Source: Solidesulfovibrio sp. (GTDB lineage: Bacteria; Desulfobacterota; Desulfovibrionia; Desulfovibrionales; Desulfovibrionaceae). From it: a stretch of DNA of 33,640 nt. This document shows positions 1 through 5,404 of this stretch, in pieces (the first letter of the stretch is position 1; the number at the start of each line of letters is the position of its first letter). Under the pieces are notes generated by a model. That model had not been told where the DNA came from. It saw only the letters and a program-made list of their open reading frames with translations, and did no database searches. Both the position numbers and the translations under genes were made by a program. Location: assembly GCF_029978005.1 (NCBI RefSeq), contig NZ_JARKOZ010000018.1, positions 1 through 33,640 on the forward strand, given 5' to 3'.

Positions 1-687
1 AACCACGACAAGTACCCGGCGCGCTTCACCGCCGACCCCTCGCTGGCCGTGCTGGCCGCCGCCGGCGCGGCGCGCGTGCTCGACGCGCCCGGGCTTTTCG
101 CCAGGCTGGTCTCGCCCACGGGCACGGCCGTGCTCGGGGCCTCGCCCGACGGCGCGCCCCTGCCGGCCAGCGTGGAGACGGCCCCGGGCGAGGAGAGCCT
201 GTGGCTCGCCCACCACAACGTGGGTTTTCCGGATTTCCTGGACAAGCACGTGAAGATCCGGGAGATTCCCGGCCTCGACTGGGTGGTCAACGGCCACATC
301 CACCGACCCCAGCCCACGGTGGTCGCCGGGCGCACCCGCTGGGCCAACCCCGGCAACATCACGCGCTTGCAGTTTAGCCGCCGCGCCAGGGAGCGCGTCC
401 CGGCCGCCGCCGCGTGGCGGCCCGGGGCGGCGGACCTCGAAATCTGGCCCGTTCCCCACCGTCCCTTCGCGGAGGTCTTTCCGGACCAGGAGTTCCCGCC
501 CGAGGAGGAGGCCGCGCCCGCCGGCGAGTCGCGCTTCCTGGAGGGGCTGGCCCGGCTGGCCTGGCGGCGCACCCGCGAGGGGGCGGGGCTCGGGGAGTTC
601 CTGCGCGCCAACCTGAACCCCGAAAACCCCGAGACGGACGTCATCTGGGAACTGTACCGGGAGGTCACCCATGCCGCCGACGAATGA
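1..687 (+). CDS. Metallophosphoesterase, SbcD/Mre11-like, 5' end cut by window
   Basis: The reading frame is open from base 1, so the N-terminal part lies outside the window and 228 residues are visible. Three calcineurin-like phosphoesterase metal-binding motifs can be seen in order: NHD (bases 1-9, the end of the usual GNHD), HHN (211-219) and GHIH (292-303). The missing upstream part should carry the DxH and GDxxD motifs. The family hydrolyses phosphodiesters with two metal ions; SbcD/Mre11 members are DNA nucleases. After the core there is a C-terminal extension of about 110 residues, rich in Pro, Glu and Arg, ending in a helical stretch. The stop overlaps the next gene by 17 bases, and an SbcC-like ATPase half lies 1.7 kb downstream. 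A DNA-processing role is therefore inferred rather than shown. It could instead be a nucleotide or protein phosphatase. Confidence 0.8.
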   Translation, partial: NHDKYPARFTADPSLAVLAAAGAARVLDAPGLFARLVSPTGTAVLGASPDGAPLPASVETAPGEESLWLAHHNVGFPDFLDKHVKIREIPGLDWVVNGHIHRPQPTVVAGRTRWANPGNITRLQFSRRARERVPAAAAWRPGAADLEIWPVPHRPFAEVFPDQEFPPEEEAAPAGESRFLEGLARLAWRRTREGAGLGEFLRANLNPENPETDVIWELYREVTHAADE

Positions 688-991
688 CAGGCCGCGCGCC
701 GCCGAGGCCGACGCCGCCGCCCAGCGCGAGCTGGCCGAACTCAAGGCCGCCTACGAGCGCTTACGGGACGACAAGGTCCGGGCCGAGCAGAACCTGGCCA
801 ACCTCACCCGGCAACTCGACGAGCTGGAGGCCCGGGCCCGGGCCGAATACGGCACGGCCGACCCGGCGGAGCTGGCCGCTCTGCTCGAGGGCATGCGCGC
901 GGAAAACGCCCGCCTGGTGGCCGAATACCGCGAACATATTTCCGGCGTGCGCCGCGACCTGGCGGCCGTGGAACGGGAGTTCGAGGAGTAA
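671..991 (+). CDS. Small coiled-coil protein in metallophosphoesterase operon
   Basis: A 106-residue protein, almost entirely charged helix with heptad-like Leu spacing (residues about 15-60 and 75-105) and a short break near the Tyr-Gly-Thr-Ala stretch at about 60. No catalytic motif, signal peptide or membrane segment is seen. The ATG at 671 follows a GGGAGG ribosome site and overlaps the end of the phosphoesterase gene by 17 bases, so the two are probably translationally coupled. A coiled coil between a phosphoesterase and an SbcC-type ATPase half could be a structural subunit or the separated arm of such a complex, but that is inference. The gene ends at the exact point where base composition switches from about 70% GC to strongly AT-rich. 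Confidence 0.75.
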   Translation: MPPTNDRPRAAEADAAAQRELAELKAAYERLRDDKVRAEQNLANLTRQLDELEARARAEYGTADPAELAALLEGMRAENARLVAEYREHISGVRRDLAAVEREFEE

Positions 992-2372
992 TAATATGCT
1001 CAGAATGAGTTCGCAAAAAAACGCAGTGGTTCGAGTGTGATGTGAATATAGTAACAAATCGAGATATCGCGATTTTGTTATGGATGAGTGTATTTTTGGG
1101 TTGCATTTTGTTTAATTCGAGGAGAAAGAAATTTTTAACATGTATTTATGGCATGCTAAAGTGTCTTTTTCATCCGACATTTGCTTTGGTTTTGATATTC
1201 TTTTTTATATATGTCGGAGTAGTATTGCTTTTGCTCTCAAGGTTTAACATATTTAACATTTCTCAGGTAAAGGATGTTGCTATATGGGTAGTGTTCTTTG
1301 GAGTTTTTAATTTTATAAAGCATGCGAATTCTGATAATATTGATTTTAAGAACCTTGTTTTTAGCAGCGTAAGGATTGAAGCTGTCATACAGTTTTTGAC
1401 TTCTAGATATGTTTTGCCCTTGCCTTTAGAGATTGCGTCCGTTCCAATAATTTTATTTCTTAGTTTTATGTATAGTGTATCTGTGAAAGATGGATATAAG
1501 AAAGTTGAATACTTTGGTGGGTTGGCTCTGTTCTTTATTGGAATAATGTTCATAATTTATTCTATGGCTTGTATTGTGATGAATTTTCGTAACGAAATAA
1601 ACGGATTGTTATTGAATGATTTTATTGTGACACCTTTGTTGACAGTATTTTATATTCCATTTCTGTTTGCATTTTCAGTGTATTGCAAGTATGAGGCTGC
1701 ATTTGCTAGAATGAGAGTATTTATTAGAGATAGGTCAATTTTATCTCGGGCAAAATTCCTAGTTTTTAAAGATTTTTTACTTGACATTGGAATGTTGAAT
1801 AGATGGCTGAGTGATATTCATTGTCAAGATACTTCCGATATTGAAGGAATTACGAAATCTATAAAAAGAATTAGACGGTTGGCTCGTCAATCAATGCAAT
1901 CCAAAAAAAACCAGACAGGTTGGAATCCTGCAAGTGTGGGAGATTTTTTGGCAACGAAAGGGCTAAAAACAGGATTTTACAAAGAAATTTGTGCGGGGGA
2001 TTGGGGGGCTAGCTCTTCGATGCTCCCAGTTAATGATGAATTGTTGGCCGACAATATCTCGTATTATGCTGAAGGTGTTGAGAATGAGGTTAGGAAATTA
2101 AAAATTATTTTTAATGCACATAATAAAAGCATGATAGAGAGTGGTTATCCTCTGTTTAAAGAGTGTGTTTTTGTCCTTGTGAATGTAGCACTCGATTCTG
2201 CTGCCATGCCCGGCCTTGTCGATGCATTAAATAGAAAAGTAGAATATGAAGAGAAAGTCTCAATGTGCGTCGTTAAACTGGAGATAAGTACGTGGATAAG
2301 CGGGATTGTTGGTGGGGTGACTTATAAACTTACACTGGATGCTGATAGTGTTCGCGCTGAAAGTTGAGTAGT
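992..2372. mobile_element. AT-rich insertion of foreign DNA (single-gene island)
   Basis: Composition drops abruptly after the stop codon at 989-991 and recovers around 2400, inside the first codons of the next gene. The stretch is AT-rich with A/T-ending codons, unlike everything around it. It holds one gene (1042-2367) and almost nothing else. I see no transposase, integrase, terminal inverted repeats or obvious target-site duplication, so the mechanism is unknown. Recombination into an operon of an otherwise GC-rich genome is the simplest explanation. Confidence 0.6.
1042..2367 (+). CDS. AT-rich polytopic membrane protein of unknown function
   Basis: A 441-residue protein. The N-terminal half has about six hydrophobic segments (approximate residues 8-25, 45-67, 76-93, 125-146, 157-182, 195-216). 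The C-terminal half (about 220-441) looks cytoplasmic, with a basic patch near 274-290 (KRIRRLARQ) and no catalytic motif I recognise. The start is GTG (1042) with no clear Shine-Dalgarno sequence. The N-terminal pattern (a short Asn-Arg-Asp/Glu segment, then Leu-Trp and a helix, then a Lys-Asp...Ile-Trp helix near 77-82) reminds me of hypothetical membrane proteins carried on genomic islands; this is recall, not a search. Codon use is strongly A/T-ending, unlike all neighbours, so recent transfer is likely. It sits inside a nuclease/ATPase operon and its stop codon is five bases before the ATPase ATG, so co-transcription is likely. A defence effector is possible but unproven. Confidence 0.75.
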   Translation: MNIVTNRDIAILLWMSVFLGCILFNSRRKKFLTCIYGMLKCLFHPTFALVLIFFFIYVGVVLLLLSRFNIFNISQVKDVAIWVVFFGVFNFIKHANSDNIDFKNLVFSSVRIEAVIQFLTSRYVLPLPLEIASVPIILFLSFMYSVSVKDGYKKVEYFGGLALFFIGIMFIIYSMACIVMNFRNEINGLLLNDFIVTPLLTVFYIPFLFAFSVYCKYEAAFARMRVFIRDRSILSRAKFLVFKDFLLDIGMLNRWLSDIHCQDTSDIEGITKSIKRIRRLARQSMQSKKNQTGWNPASVGDFLATKGLKTGFYKEICAGDWGASSSMLPVNDELLADNISYYAEGVENEVRKLKIIFNAHNKSMIESGYPLFKECVFVLVNVALDSAAMPGLVDALNRKVEYEEKVSMCVVKLEISTWISGIVGGVTYKLTLDADSVRAES

Positions 2373-3095
2373 ATGTCTGCTAGTGAGCGAGAGAGTTTAG
2401 GCGAAATGCGCCGGGAGCTGACGCGCCGCCTGGACCGGCTGTCGGGCGTGGCCGAGGGAAGGGTGCGCGAGCACCTCGACGCCCGGCAGGCCCTCGGCGC
2501 GGCGGCGGACTTCCTGGAGCTGTCGCCCCGGGTGGCGGCGCGCCTGGAGGAGCTCACCCGGGAACTCTTCGGCGAGGTCCTCGACGAGGTCGAAACCGAT
2601 CTCACCCATGCCGTGCGCGAGATCCTCGGCCAGGACCGCAAGGTCGTCTCGCGCCGGGAAGTCAAAAACAACCGGCTGTGCATCGAGTTCGAGATGGAGC
2701 AGGACGGCCGCACCGAGGACATCCTCACCGGCCAGGGCGGCTCGGTCTGCAACATCCTGTCCGTGGGCCTGCGCCTGATCGCCCTGTCCCGGCTGGACCC
2801 GGCCGCGCACCGGCCGTTTCTGGTCCTCGACGAGCAGGACTGCTGGCTGCGGCCCGACCTCGTGCCCGGCTTCGTGCGCCTGATCGCCGCCATCGCCGAG
2901 CGCCTCGACCTGCAGGTGCTCTACATCAGCCACCACCCGGTGGACCATTTCGCCGGCCAGGCGAGGCGCGTCTTCGCCCTGCGCCCGAGCCGCGAAGGGG
3001 GGCCGCGCCTGGACATCCTGTCCGAGCGCCCGGCCGGGGAGGCCGAACTGCCGGGATTTTCCGTCAGCGCCGCGACCGAGCCCGGGGGCGAGTGA
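2373..3095 (+). CDS. SbcC/Rad50-type ATPase, C-terminal half only (no Walker A)
   Basis: About 240 residues. An N-terminal helical region (about 10-90) leads into the C-terminal ATPase lobe of an SMC/Rad50-like protein: an ABC-signature-like stretch TGQGGSVCNILSVG (about 119-132), Walker B LVLDE with the expected Asp-Glu pair (about 150-154), a following D-loop-like segment, and a switch His pair in YISHH (about 184-188). No Walker A P-loop exists in this frame or nearby, so on its own it cannot bind ATP in the normal way. The start is uncertain: ATG 2373 is used here; TTG 2364 overlaps the upstream stop, and ATG 2406 is also possible. The first codons come from the AT-rich insert, so the original N-terminal half may have been lost. 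Alternatively it is a true split subunit whose partner lies elsewhere. Expected partner: the phosphoesterase at 1-687. Confidence 0.7.
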   Translation: MSASERESLGEMRRELTRRLDRLSGVAEGRVREHLDARQALGAAADFLELSPRVAARLEELTRELFGEVLDEVETDLTHAVREILGQDRKVVSRREVKNNRLCIEFEMEQDGRTEDILTGQGGSVCNILSVGLRLIALSRLDPAAHRPFLVLDEQDCWLRPDLVPGFVRLIAAIAERLDLQVLYISHHPVDHFAGQARRVFALRPSREGGPRLDILSERPAGEAELPGFSVSAATEPGGE

Positions 3096-3105
3096 GCCTT
3101 TCCGG

Positions 3106-3122
3106 GCCGCCGGCGCGGCGGC
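3106..3122. terminator. GC hairpin downstream of ATPase gene
   Basis: GCCGCC and GGCGGC separated by five bases, 11 bases after the ATPase stop. There is no T-run, so termination is only plausible. It lies between convergent genes. Confidence 0.35.
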
Positions 3123-3209
3123 ATGCCGTTTGCGAATAATCGATATGGATGCCGGGGCGTTGCTGGCCGGCTGCCGGAGGCGTTACGTTCGAGGCTGACG
3201 CGTCTGGGA

Positions 3210-3383
3210 TCAGCCGCAGCCGCAGCCCAGGACCTTGCATTCGCAGCCCAGGCAGCTCTGGGGCGCGGTCAGGACACGGTCGCCGTAGGCGGACAGGGCG
3301 TCGGCCGGCGCGGCCTTGGCCAGGGCGAAAAGCGCGCAGCACAGGACCAGGGCCAGGCCGGCCAGGAAGGAAAGGCTTCGCAT
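3210..3383 (-). CDS. Small secreted Cys-rich peptide (57 aa)
   Basis: A 57-residue protein. The N-terminus is a clear signal peptide: Met-Arg, a hydrophobic core to about residue 22 and a likely cleavage near AKA (about 24-25). The mature part is only about 32 residues and ends in five cysteines at 44, 47, 49, 54 and 56 (CxxCxC then CxC, with Gly between). This could bind a metal or form disulfides in the periplasm; the function is unknown. The ATG at 3383 has an AAGGAA site six bases upstream on the minus strand. It lies 11 bases after the CBS-domain gene and is probably co-transcribed with it. It is easy to miss because a much longer antisense-type frame runs through the same bases. Confidence 0.65.
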   Translation of the reverse strand: MRSLSFLAGLALVLCCALFALAKAAPADALSAYGDRVLTAPQSCLGCECKVLGCGCG

Positions 3384-3394
3384 GACGGGGTTCC

Positions 3395-3868
3395 TTACAG
3401 GTTTTGCACCAGGAAGTGCAGGATCATGCGGCGGGTGATCTCGCCCACCAGCACGCCGTTGGGGTCGATGACGGGCAGGGCGTTGATGCCCTTTTCCACG
3501 ATCAGCTCGTTGGCCATGACGAACAGGTCCTCGGGGTGGGCGAAGGGATAGTCCGCGTCCATGAGGGTGCCGACGGGGGTGTCGGAAAGCGTGCCCATGT
3601 TCTGGCGCAGGGCGTCGAGCAGTTCCTCGCGGCCGTCGAGCTCCCCGGCCTTGGCCCGGGCGGTCACGGTGGGCGGCACGATGACCGACAGGAAGGTGTG
3701 GATGGTCACCACGCCGAGCAGCCGGTCGCAGTGGTCCACCACGTAGGTGTTGCGAAATACGTGGGCCATGCCGCCGTACCAGATGAGCACGTTGCCGATG
3801 GGCGCTTCCGGACGGACCTTGATGAGCGTCGTGCGCATGATGTCGGAGATGAGCATGCCGTAACCCAT
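3395..3868 (-). CDS. CBS-domain protein, two CBS motifs
   Basis: A 157-residue protein made of a CBS pair. The first motif begins at about residue 6 (ISDIMRTTLIKVRPEAPIG) and continues through VVDHCDRLLGVVT. The second begins at about 99 (VGTLMDADYPFAHPEDLF) and ends in LPVIDPNGVLVGEITRRMIL. CBS pairs bind adenine nucleotides (AMP, ATP, SAM) and regulate an attached or partner protein. No other domain is present, so this is a stand-alone sensor. Between the motifs there is an insertion of about 30 residues. The ATG at 3868 has a weak AGG site; an internal Met at residue 5 is an alternative. It is transcribed away from the cupin gene and is followed after 11 bases by the Cys-rich peptide gene. 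Confidence 0.85.
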   Translation of the reverse strand: MGYGMLISDIMRTTLIKVRPEAPIGNVLIWYGGMAHVFRNTYVVDHCDRLLGVVTIHTFLSVIVPPTVTARAKAGELDGREELLDALRQNMGTLSDTPVGTLMDADYPFAHPEDLFVMANELIVEKGINALPVIDPNGVLVGEITRRMILHFLVQNL

Positions 3869-5356: not shown

Positions 5357-5378
5357 AAGGGGGGAGAGCCTCCGGCGG

Positions 5379-5404
5379 CCAGGAGGGGGACCTCCCCCTC
5401 CTGG
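5379..5404. terminator. 26-base palindrome between convergent genes
   Basis: CCAGGAGGGGGA-CC-TCCCCCTCCTGG, two perfect 12-base arms, between the convergent AraC and membrane-protein genes. It is preceded by GCCTCCGGCGGCC, which together resembles a repeated intergenic element I recall from Desulfovibrio genomes. Probably a bidirectional terminator. Confidence 0.55.

Follow-up and report, generated by a model that had tools for sequence, protein, structure and literature searches.

A horizontally acquired membrane-protein gene within a Rad50/Mre11-type operon of Solidesulfovibrio, a candidate for single-gene anti-phage defence

Among the closest known counterparts of the gene studied here are those of two plasmid proteins, WP_010989066.1 ('membrane protein', Salmonella IncHI2 plasmid) and WNL17972.1 ('hypothetical protein', Arcobacter plasmid). 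Both are full-length homologues of similar length and share its conserved residues, but they are only 21-28% identical to its product, have other neighbours and carry no function in their records. The gene lies in a stretch of 33,640 nucleotides of Solidesulfovibrio sp. (contig NZ_JARKOZ010000018.1; the whole stretch is called the window below), where it separates the small coiled-coil gene from the C-half ATPase gene of a Rad50/Mre11-type operon. Our best explanation, held with moderate confidence, is that a single gene of an undescribed membrane family was acquired horizontally and most likely encodes a stand-alone anti-phage protein. Within it, the entry of one foreign gene into a core operon without breaking it is well supported.

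The foreign character of the insert is evident from its base composition. A two-breakpoint maximum-likelihood fit of G+C content (GC) over positions 1-3400 places the AT-rich insert at 987..2407, with 2-lnL (log-likelihood) support intervals of 969-991 on the left and 2398-2409 on the right, and beats a model without insert by ~242 lnL. The insert gene has 35% GC and its flanks ~72%, and GC at third codon positions is 0.32, against 0.88-0.93 for the phosphoesterase, coiled-coil and ATPase genes. Over 1300-bp stretches, window GC has a mean of 67.0% (standard deviation 4.4%); the lowest value, 34.2%, is at the insert, while the minimum elsewhere is 54.5%. The sharp change after position 991 and the recovery near 2400 that a sequence-only reading of this DNA had pointed out are therefore real.

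The same reading placed the junctions exactly on a stop codon and on a start codon. DNA alignments to three near relatives (G001-G003) end on the left at 993 and 994 in two cases, the third having a weak gapped tail that reaches 1043, and the border coincides with the coiled-coil stop codon (989-991), as had been claimed. On the right, local alignments are weak from 2335-2337 and good by eye from ~2406, so that the border does not fall on the first ATG of the ATPase frame, at 2373, but ~35 nt further inside, where an in-frame ATG stands at 2406. The intervening codons (2373-2405) have 48% GC and no match to the relatives; therefore, the C-half has either gained its start from the insert or begins natively at ATG 2406. 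The stop-to-start claim is right in the latter case and nearly right otherwise. The open reading frames (ORFs) of this analysis were picked by a simple caller in place of a gene finder.

Within the insert we saw one 441-aa membrane-protein gene and no mobility gene, in agreement with the sequence-only reading. No terminal repeats or target duplication were found at its borders; the sole repeat pair with arms at both (17 nt, 82%, 948-964 and 2407-2423) has both copies in host coding sequence. An origin as transposon or insertion sequence was accordingly rejected, there being no transposase in the single ORF, no terminal repeats and no target duplication. As to an integron cassette, the gene's stop ~40 nt before the border and 5 nt before ATG 2373 leaves little room for an attC site, although no attC model or integrase profile was applied. 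Joining of unrelated pieces during assembly is very improbable. The source genome is fragmented (4.8 Mb, 224 contigs, 4.14% contamination), which would favour such an artefact, but the genes on both sides of the insert follow each other in a conserved operon, with the usual order and orientation, and share 82-89% identity with those of G001-G003; the borders fall at frame ends, and other family members stand in similar islands.

Relatives show the operon without the insert. The C-half ATPase, which lacks a Pfam match of its own and was typed by eye from its motifs and operon, was found in 22 of the 59 genomes searched, the source genome counted, with 56-86% identity to the best match in the 21 relatives. 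All 13 same-genus genomes searched have it and none has the insert gene. In 11 of these 13, coiled coil and C-half are 4-171 bp apart, the uninterrupted operon that had been expected of relatives. In the other two (G004, G011) the C-half lies on the other strand ~5.5 kb away, so that recombination at the site, which had been suggested for this locus, is seen as well. Among the eight further relatives with a C-half, the two genes overlap or are at most 17 bp apart in six. The coiled coil has an orthologue in 18 of the 21 relatives' first loci, and in 20 once longer stretches for the other three are added; in G018, no coiled-coil gene was found within the 13.6 kb examined. Phosphoesterase identity to the orthologue is 74-89% in the 11 same-genus loci having one. 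A different gene at the same site, also anticipated, occurs in G029, of another genus, where a 1,024-bp gap between coiled coil and C-half holds an Rce1-like CAAX-protease gene (PF02517). This gene, however, has host-like GC (0.69) and no PADLOC match. The gap has thus changed more than once across relatives, and among the genomes compared the insert-gene family is seen there in the source genome alone. Fixation of the gene in the genus and uniform composition, either of which would speak against an insertion, were looked for and not found.

The operon order in G029 is N-half (458 aa, AAA_23, with a Walker-A-type motif), phosphoesterase, coiled coil and C-half, the C-half motifs being assigned by eye. 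We note a Rad50-type ATPase split into N-half and C-half genes, which flank a phosphoesterase gene and a small coiled-coil gene (L040 6644-11029 in G029; window 1-3095). The N-half match in the source genome (46% over residues 2-343 of 457) sits at the extreme end of another contig (C41:9-1031), and for this reason the operon is probably whole and interrupted by a contig gap, with the N-half presumably adjacent here too.

It might be argued that the locus is damaged: the gap would be prone to recombination, the insert would be a neutral passenger in it, and the C-half would no longer be properly made. The gap is altered in G004, G011 and G029 as well, no coiled-coil gene was found in the stretch of G018 examined, and the first C-half codons are changed in the window. 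In G001-G003 and G010 the gap (L002-L005) holds a GC-rich palindromic repeat, recognized by eye, whose core GCCTCCGGCGGCCNGGAGGGG has 103, 79, 145 and 95 matches in the source genome (G000), G001, G003 and G010, respectively, and none in the reversed control. This high-copy repeat is absent from the window's gap and has a copy at window ~5368-5388. Nevertheless, all frames are open, the insert protein matches 19 of 20 alignment columns that do not vary among the 20 other family members, and the C-half is intact from 2406; we thus regard damage as unlikely.

The insert gene, whose GTG start is consistent with its homologues, is present in single copy in the source genome. It starts 50 nt past the coiled-coil stop, on the same strand, and ends 5 nt ahead of ATG 2373. 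A short open frame, preceded by a GGAG within the end of the coiled-coil gene (Table 1), ends 1 nt before the GTG, and on this spacing translational coupling of the insert gene to its neighbours is plausible. No RNA or tRNA genes were found in the window. Promoter-like sites number 9 against 2.2 in shuffles, and terminators 3 against 3.1, but the shuffles blend AT-rich and GC-rich parts and we draw nothing from them.

The close spacing could also suggest that the insert protein is a working partner of the Rad50/Mre11-type complex, as a membrane tether or effector. In Arcobacter (L024) the family gene likewise stands directly behind a coiled-coil AAA_13/SMC-like ATPase, which matches PDC-S06. 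However, a tblastn search of the sequence available around the other 20 members gave no match to any of the three operon proteins, and in G020 operon and family gene are on separate contigs. We consider such a partnership improbable.

Table 1. Features of the insert and its host operon (window positions).
Feature	Position	Strand	Basis or remark
Metallophosphoesterase (SbcD/Mre11-like), 5' end cut by contig start	1..687	+	Metallophos_2, E 0.0015, under gathering score
Small coiled-coil protein, 106 aa; its stop is the left insert border	671..991	+	Orthologues in relatives
AT-rich foreign insert, ~1.4 kb	992..2407	+	Breakpoint fit and DNA alignment to G001-G003
14-codon open frame, ends 1 nt before the insert-gene GTG	996..1040	+	GGAG at 985-988, within coiled-coil gene end, precedes its ATG
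Insert gene, 441 aa, GTG start	1042..2367	+	Membrane part, residues ~6-227; C-terminal domain, ~290-433
C-terminal domain; many of the best-conserved family residues lie here (G293, W294, Y313, Y341, G345)	1894..2364	+	Alignment; structure model
Rad50/SbcC-type C-half ATPase; frame opens at ATG 2373, native sequence at ~2406	2373..3095	+	Relatives' matches, motifs
In-frame ATG at right composition border; candidate native C-half start	2406..2408	+	Sequence, alignment, GC fit

The insert protein could not be assigned to a known domain: it has no match in Pfam, PADLOC, NCBIfam or PHROGs, nor to solved structures by profile, and nine family members that were scanned gave weak single matches only. 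Its full-length structure model (predicted local distance difference test, pLDDT, 78.5; predicted template modelling score, pTM, 0.53) has eight long helices in residues 6-227, followed by a C-terminal domain of strands and two helices, which was also modelled on its own (residues 281-441; pLDDT 86.5, pTM 0.83). By hydropathy, residues 1-210 contain six membrane-like stretches, of which two overlap, and the C-terminal domain contains one.

Within the taxonomic family, 6 of the 198 other genomes searched carry a relative of the protein (23-29% identity). A sample of 394 others from across the phylum gave 5, of which three are short or partial, and a profile search of 246 others in a class sample gave 7, one being a fragment with a stop. 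Four plasmid records also carry the gene. A two-motif search added 12 members on genome contigs, from Pseudomonas, Photobacterium, Aliidiomarina, Shewanella, Ewingella, Mangrovibacter, Aeromonas, Serratia and Sphingobium, and from metagenome-assembled genomes (MAGs) of Hyphomonas, Nitrospinaceae and a gammaproteobacterium. The Salmonella homologue has no DNA match in complete E. coli genomes. The set used below comprises 21 full-length members, the own copy included, and leaves aside the partial or short relatives G143, G189, G408, G477 and CP082516.1 and a second Arcobacter record, CP129951.1. Two of the short relatives (L034 6899-7804 in G143, 301 aa; L035 7934-8791 in G189, 285 aa) have the membrane part only and no C-terminal domain.

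The own copy is 21-30% identical to the other 20 members. Residues invariant over all 21 include R7, K77, W82, E130, P206, Y217, W255, G293, W294, Y313, Y341, G345 and G425, and the own copy agrees with 35 of the 43 columns that reach 90% conservation (18 or more of the other 20). As most invariant and conserved columns are kept, it looks functional. Our limited literature searches, together with passages of PMC7767384, revealed no description of the family. It is new to the libraries searched; its kind, an orphan accessory gene at defence-type sites, is already known.

Family genes behave as foreign cargo elsewhere too. Over the 21 members the gene has a mean GC of 0.375 (standard deviation 0.058) and its flanks 0.508 (0.104), with a correlation of 0.22 between the two, and gene GC is more than 8 points under the flanks in 15 of 21. 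Six of these 15 are clean one-gene islands (the own copy, at 35% against 72% GC, G393, G449, G575, G491 and the Nitrospinaceae MAG), defined by host-like GC in each available 500-nt bin within 1 kb on both sides. Under a more lenient measure the AT-rich stretch reaches no more than 400 bp beyond either end of the gene in 14 of 15, but this measure halts as soon as 100 nt are host-like and underestimates adjacent AT-rich DNA. The remaining six members, including Sphingobium at 57% GC, show no GC contrast.

Cargo has been exchanged at two family sites, those of G491 and G449. In G491 (L050 6825-9859) the family gene and a RhuM gene lie between phosphoglucomutase (pgm) and ychF. The same site holds ~500 bp and is nearly empty in G467, carries another AT-rich gene and RhuM pieces in G507 and G519, and in G539, of the same genus as G491, is filled by the CBASS E2, cyclase and phospholipase genes (PADLOC E values 7e-81, 8e-117 and 3e-107). 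At the G449 site, ~4.5 kb between shared flanks hold the family gene together with an FmdE-like gene and, by eye, a transposase-like one; in G271 the flanks are ~1.7 kb apart and enclose another membrane gene, also AT-rich (42%; L084 13417-14127), which weakly matches the octameric membrane protein family 8xMP, under the gathering score. In G393 compared with G612, similarity sets in with the final base of the family gene's stop codon; here and in G575 the comparison covers the right side only.

Some further observations were made at these sites. The pgm-ychF hot spot (L050, L104-L107) contains in G519 glycosyltransferase-like genes (by eye), an AT-rich 200-aa gene and a second, 260-bp copy of pgm-side sequence. 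Behind the G491 family gene stands a 68-bp multicopy repeat, which might be an attC-like site. In G575 a multicopy repeat of up to ~300 bp (L049 ~61-413) has many matches in G653 and G620, some ~370-380 bp apart. The Salmonella IncHI2 copy (L025 7995-9317) lies between integrase genes, in a stretch that also has fljA, an SgrR-family gene and ptsG, genes that are usually chromosomal.

For the neighbourhoods of the 20 relatives' loci, 84 of the 109 ORFs picked were scanned, 25 being dropped by eye as distant or doubtful frames. Their Pfam matches include nSTAND3 (3), Phage_integrase (3), RhuM (2), Integrase_1 (2), rve (2) and an N6 methylase (1), but also metabolic domains such as aconitase, UbiA and glycine cleavage H protein. 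Integrases are found near some members, and in Sphingobium a ParE toxin precedes the family gene. PADLOC candidates next to or near the family gene were confirmed gene by gene in L024 (PDC-S06), L047 (PDC-S73) and L050 (PDC-S05). L048, with a homologous neighbour of the L047 type, and L061, with a type I methylase and RhuM, may hold further candidate defence neighbours. It is from position, mainly the CBASS exchange at one site and the candidate defence neighbours in a few loci, that we infer an anti-phage role.

A number of observations weigh against this role. Gene-by-gene confirmation of a PADLOC neighbour extends to just 3 of the 20 loci, and no PADLOC family is matched by the DUF4365 gene of L061 or by the alternative cargo found at family and operon sites (L084, L104, L040). 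The 84 neighbours together match 249 PADLOC families, but among the 25 matches listed the members are not named; as a rough control, 26 window ORFs match 13 families, a comparison too crude to serve as a test, since redundant models are counted and some window matches are strong and unassigned to genes. Window matches such as PycTIR (9e-22), mad3 (5e-19) and QatD (2e-15) are probably cross-hits of common domains. The insert protein itself matches no PADLOC family at E up to 1, and the best PADLOC value among the nine scanned members is 0.019. Fold searches gave no match at E <= 0.001, either in the PDB, with the full-length model and the C-terminal domain, or among viral structure models, with the full-length model. 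Neither 50,697 phage records nor, in two motif scans, viral contigs yielded a homologue, on which grounds an origin from phage was also rejected. Nine of the 15 contrasting members have more AT-rich DNA beside the gene. The 21 members are not independent, since the gammaproteobacterial and Arcobacter members are 52-90% identical among themselves. Finally, no defence gene adjoins the insert in the window, and the insert apparently stands outside any defence island here, because the rest of the window reads by eye as ordinary host genes. The interpretation given in the sequence-only reading is nonetheless supported overall, its defence element being drawn from what the family does at other loci.

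The same facts leave a real possibility, if a smaller one, that the gene is mobile accessory cargo of a non-defence kind, such as a membrane protein for stress or transport, or one of superinfection type, that merely happens to occur in the same islands as defence genes. The low number of confirmed defence neighbours and the metabolic nature of several neighbouring genes would agree with this, as would the UTRA and chorismate-lyase entries, which are ligand-binding folds, in the weak, non-significant fold list of the C-terminal domain; both recur in the PDB lists. On the other hand, the exchange with CBASS at one site and the restriction, STAND-NTPase, RhuM and toxin-antitoxin genes near some members argue for defence.

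Returning to the best explanation, horizontal transfer brought in a single foreign gene, which came to lie between coiled coil and C-half, oriented with the operon and with no reading frame broken. As an anti-phage gene it would be expressed from the host operon; its C-terminal domain would sense an infection cue or ligand and its membrane part would act on the inner membrane. A membrane effector with a C-terminal sensor fits the predicted anatomy of the protein. It is tempting to go further and propose, tentatively, a new stand-alone family of membrane-embedded anti-phage proteins, often encoded by a lone AT-rich gene and able to enter a host operon behind a stop codon, using host transcription and translational coupling. 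Such a family would range from the source's own family to gamma- and alphaproteobacteria, Arcobacter and a MAG of Nitrospinaceae.

Although none of the four protein libraries searched has a match to it, the family is broad and conserved; it occurs as foreign cargo, in one case where a sister species has CBASS. It is therefore a candidate for one-gene anti-virus defence. Moreover, foreign cargo can enter a core operon without breaking frames, and searches limited to defence islands would miss such places.

How does the locus compare with known systems? CBASS effectors act at membranes or other targets. CBASS (E2, cyclase and patatin phospholipase) resembles the family in filling, in G539, the pgm-ychF site that the family gene fills in G491. 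It differs in consisting of several genes with a nucleotide cyclase; the family gene matches no CBASS model, and the insert's neighbours are the coiled coil and the C-half ATPase, with no cyclase match and thus no CD-NTase gene beside an effector. Single-gene abortive-infection-type membrane proteins, as a class, resemble the insert in being encoded by one accessory AT-rich gene and in joining a membrane part to a soluble domain; on the side of differences, the insert protein has no PADLOC match. The Rce1-like gene of G029 is likewise a single membrane-protein gene between coiled coil and C-half, but its product is unrelated, its GC is host-like and its genus another. Lastly, the host operon belongs with Mre11-Rad50/SbcCD, the full set of N-half, phosphoesterase, coiled coil and C-half being present in G029; it differs in that its ATPase is split into separate genes, and the insert gene is no part of the complex set.

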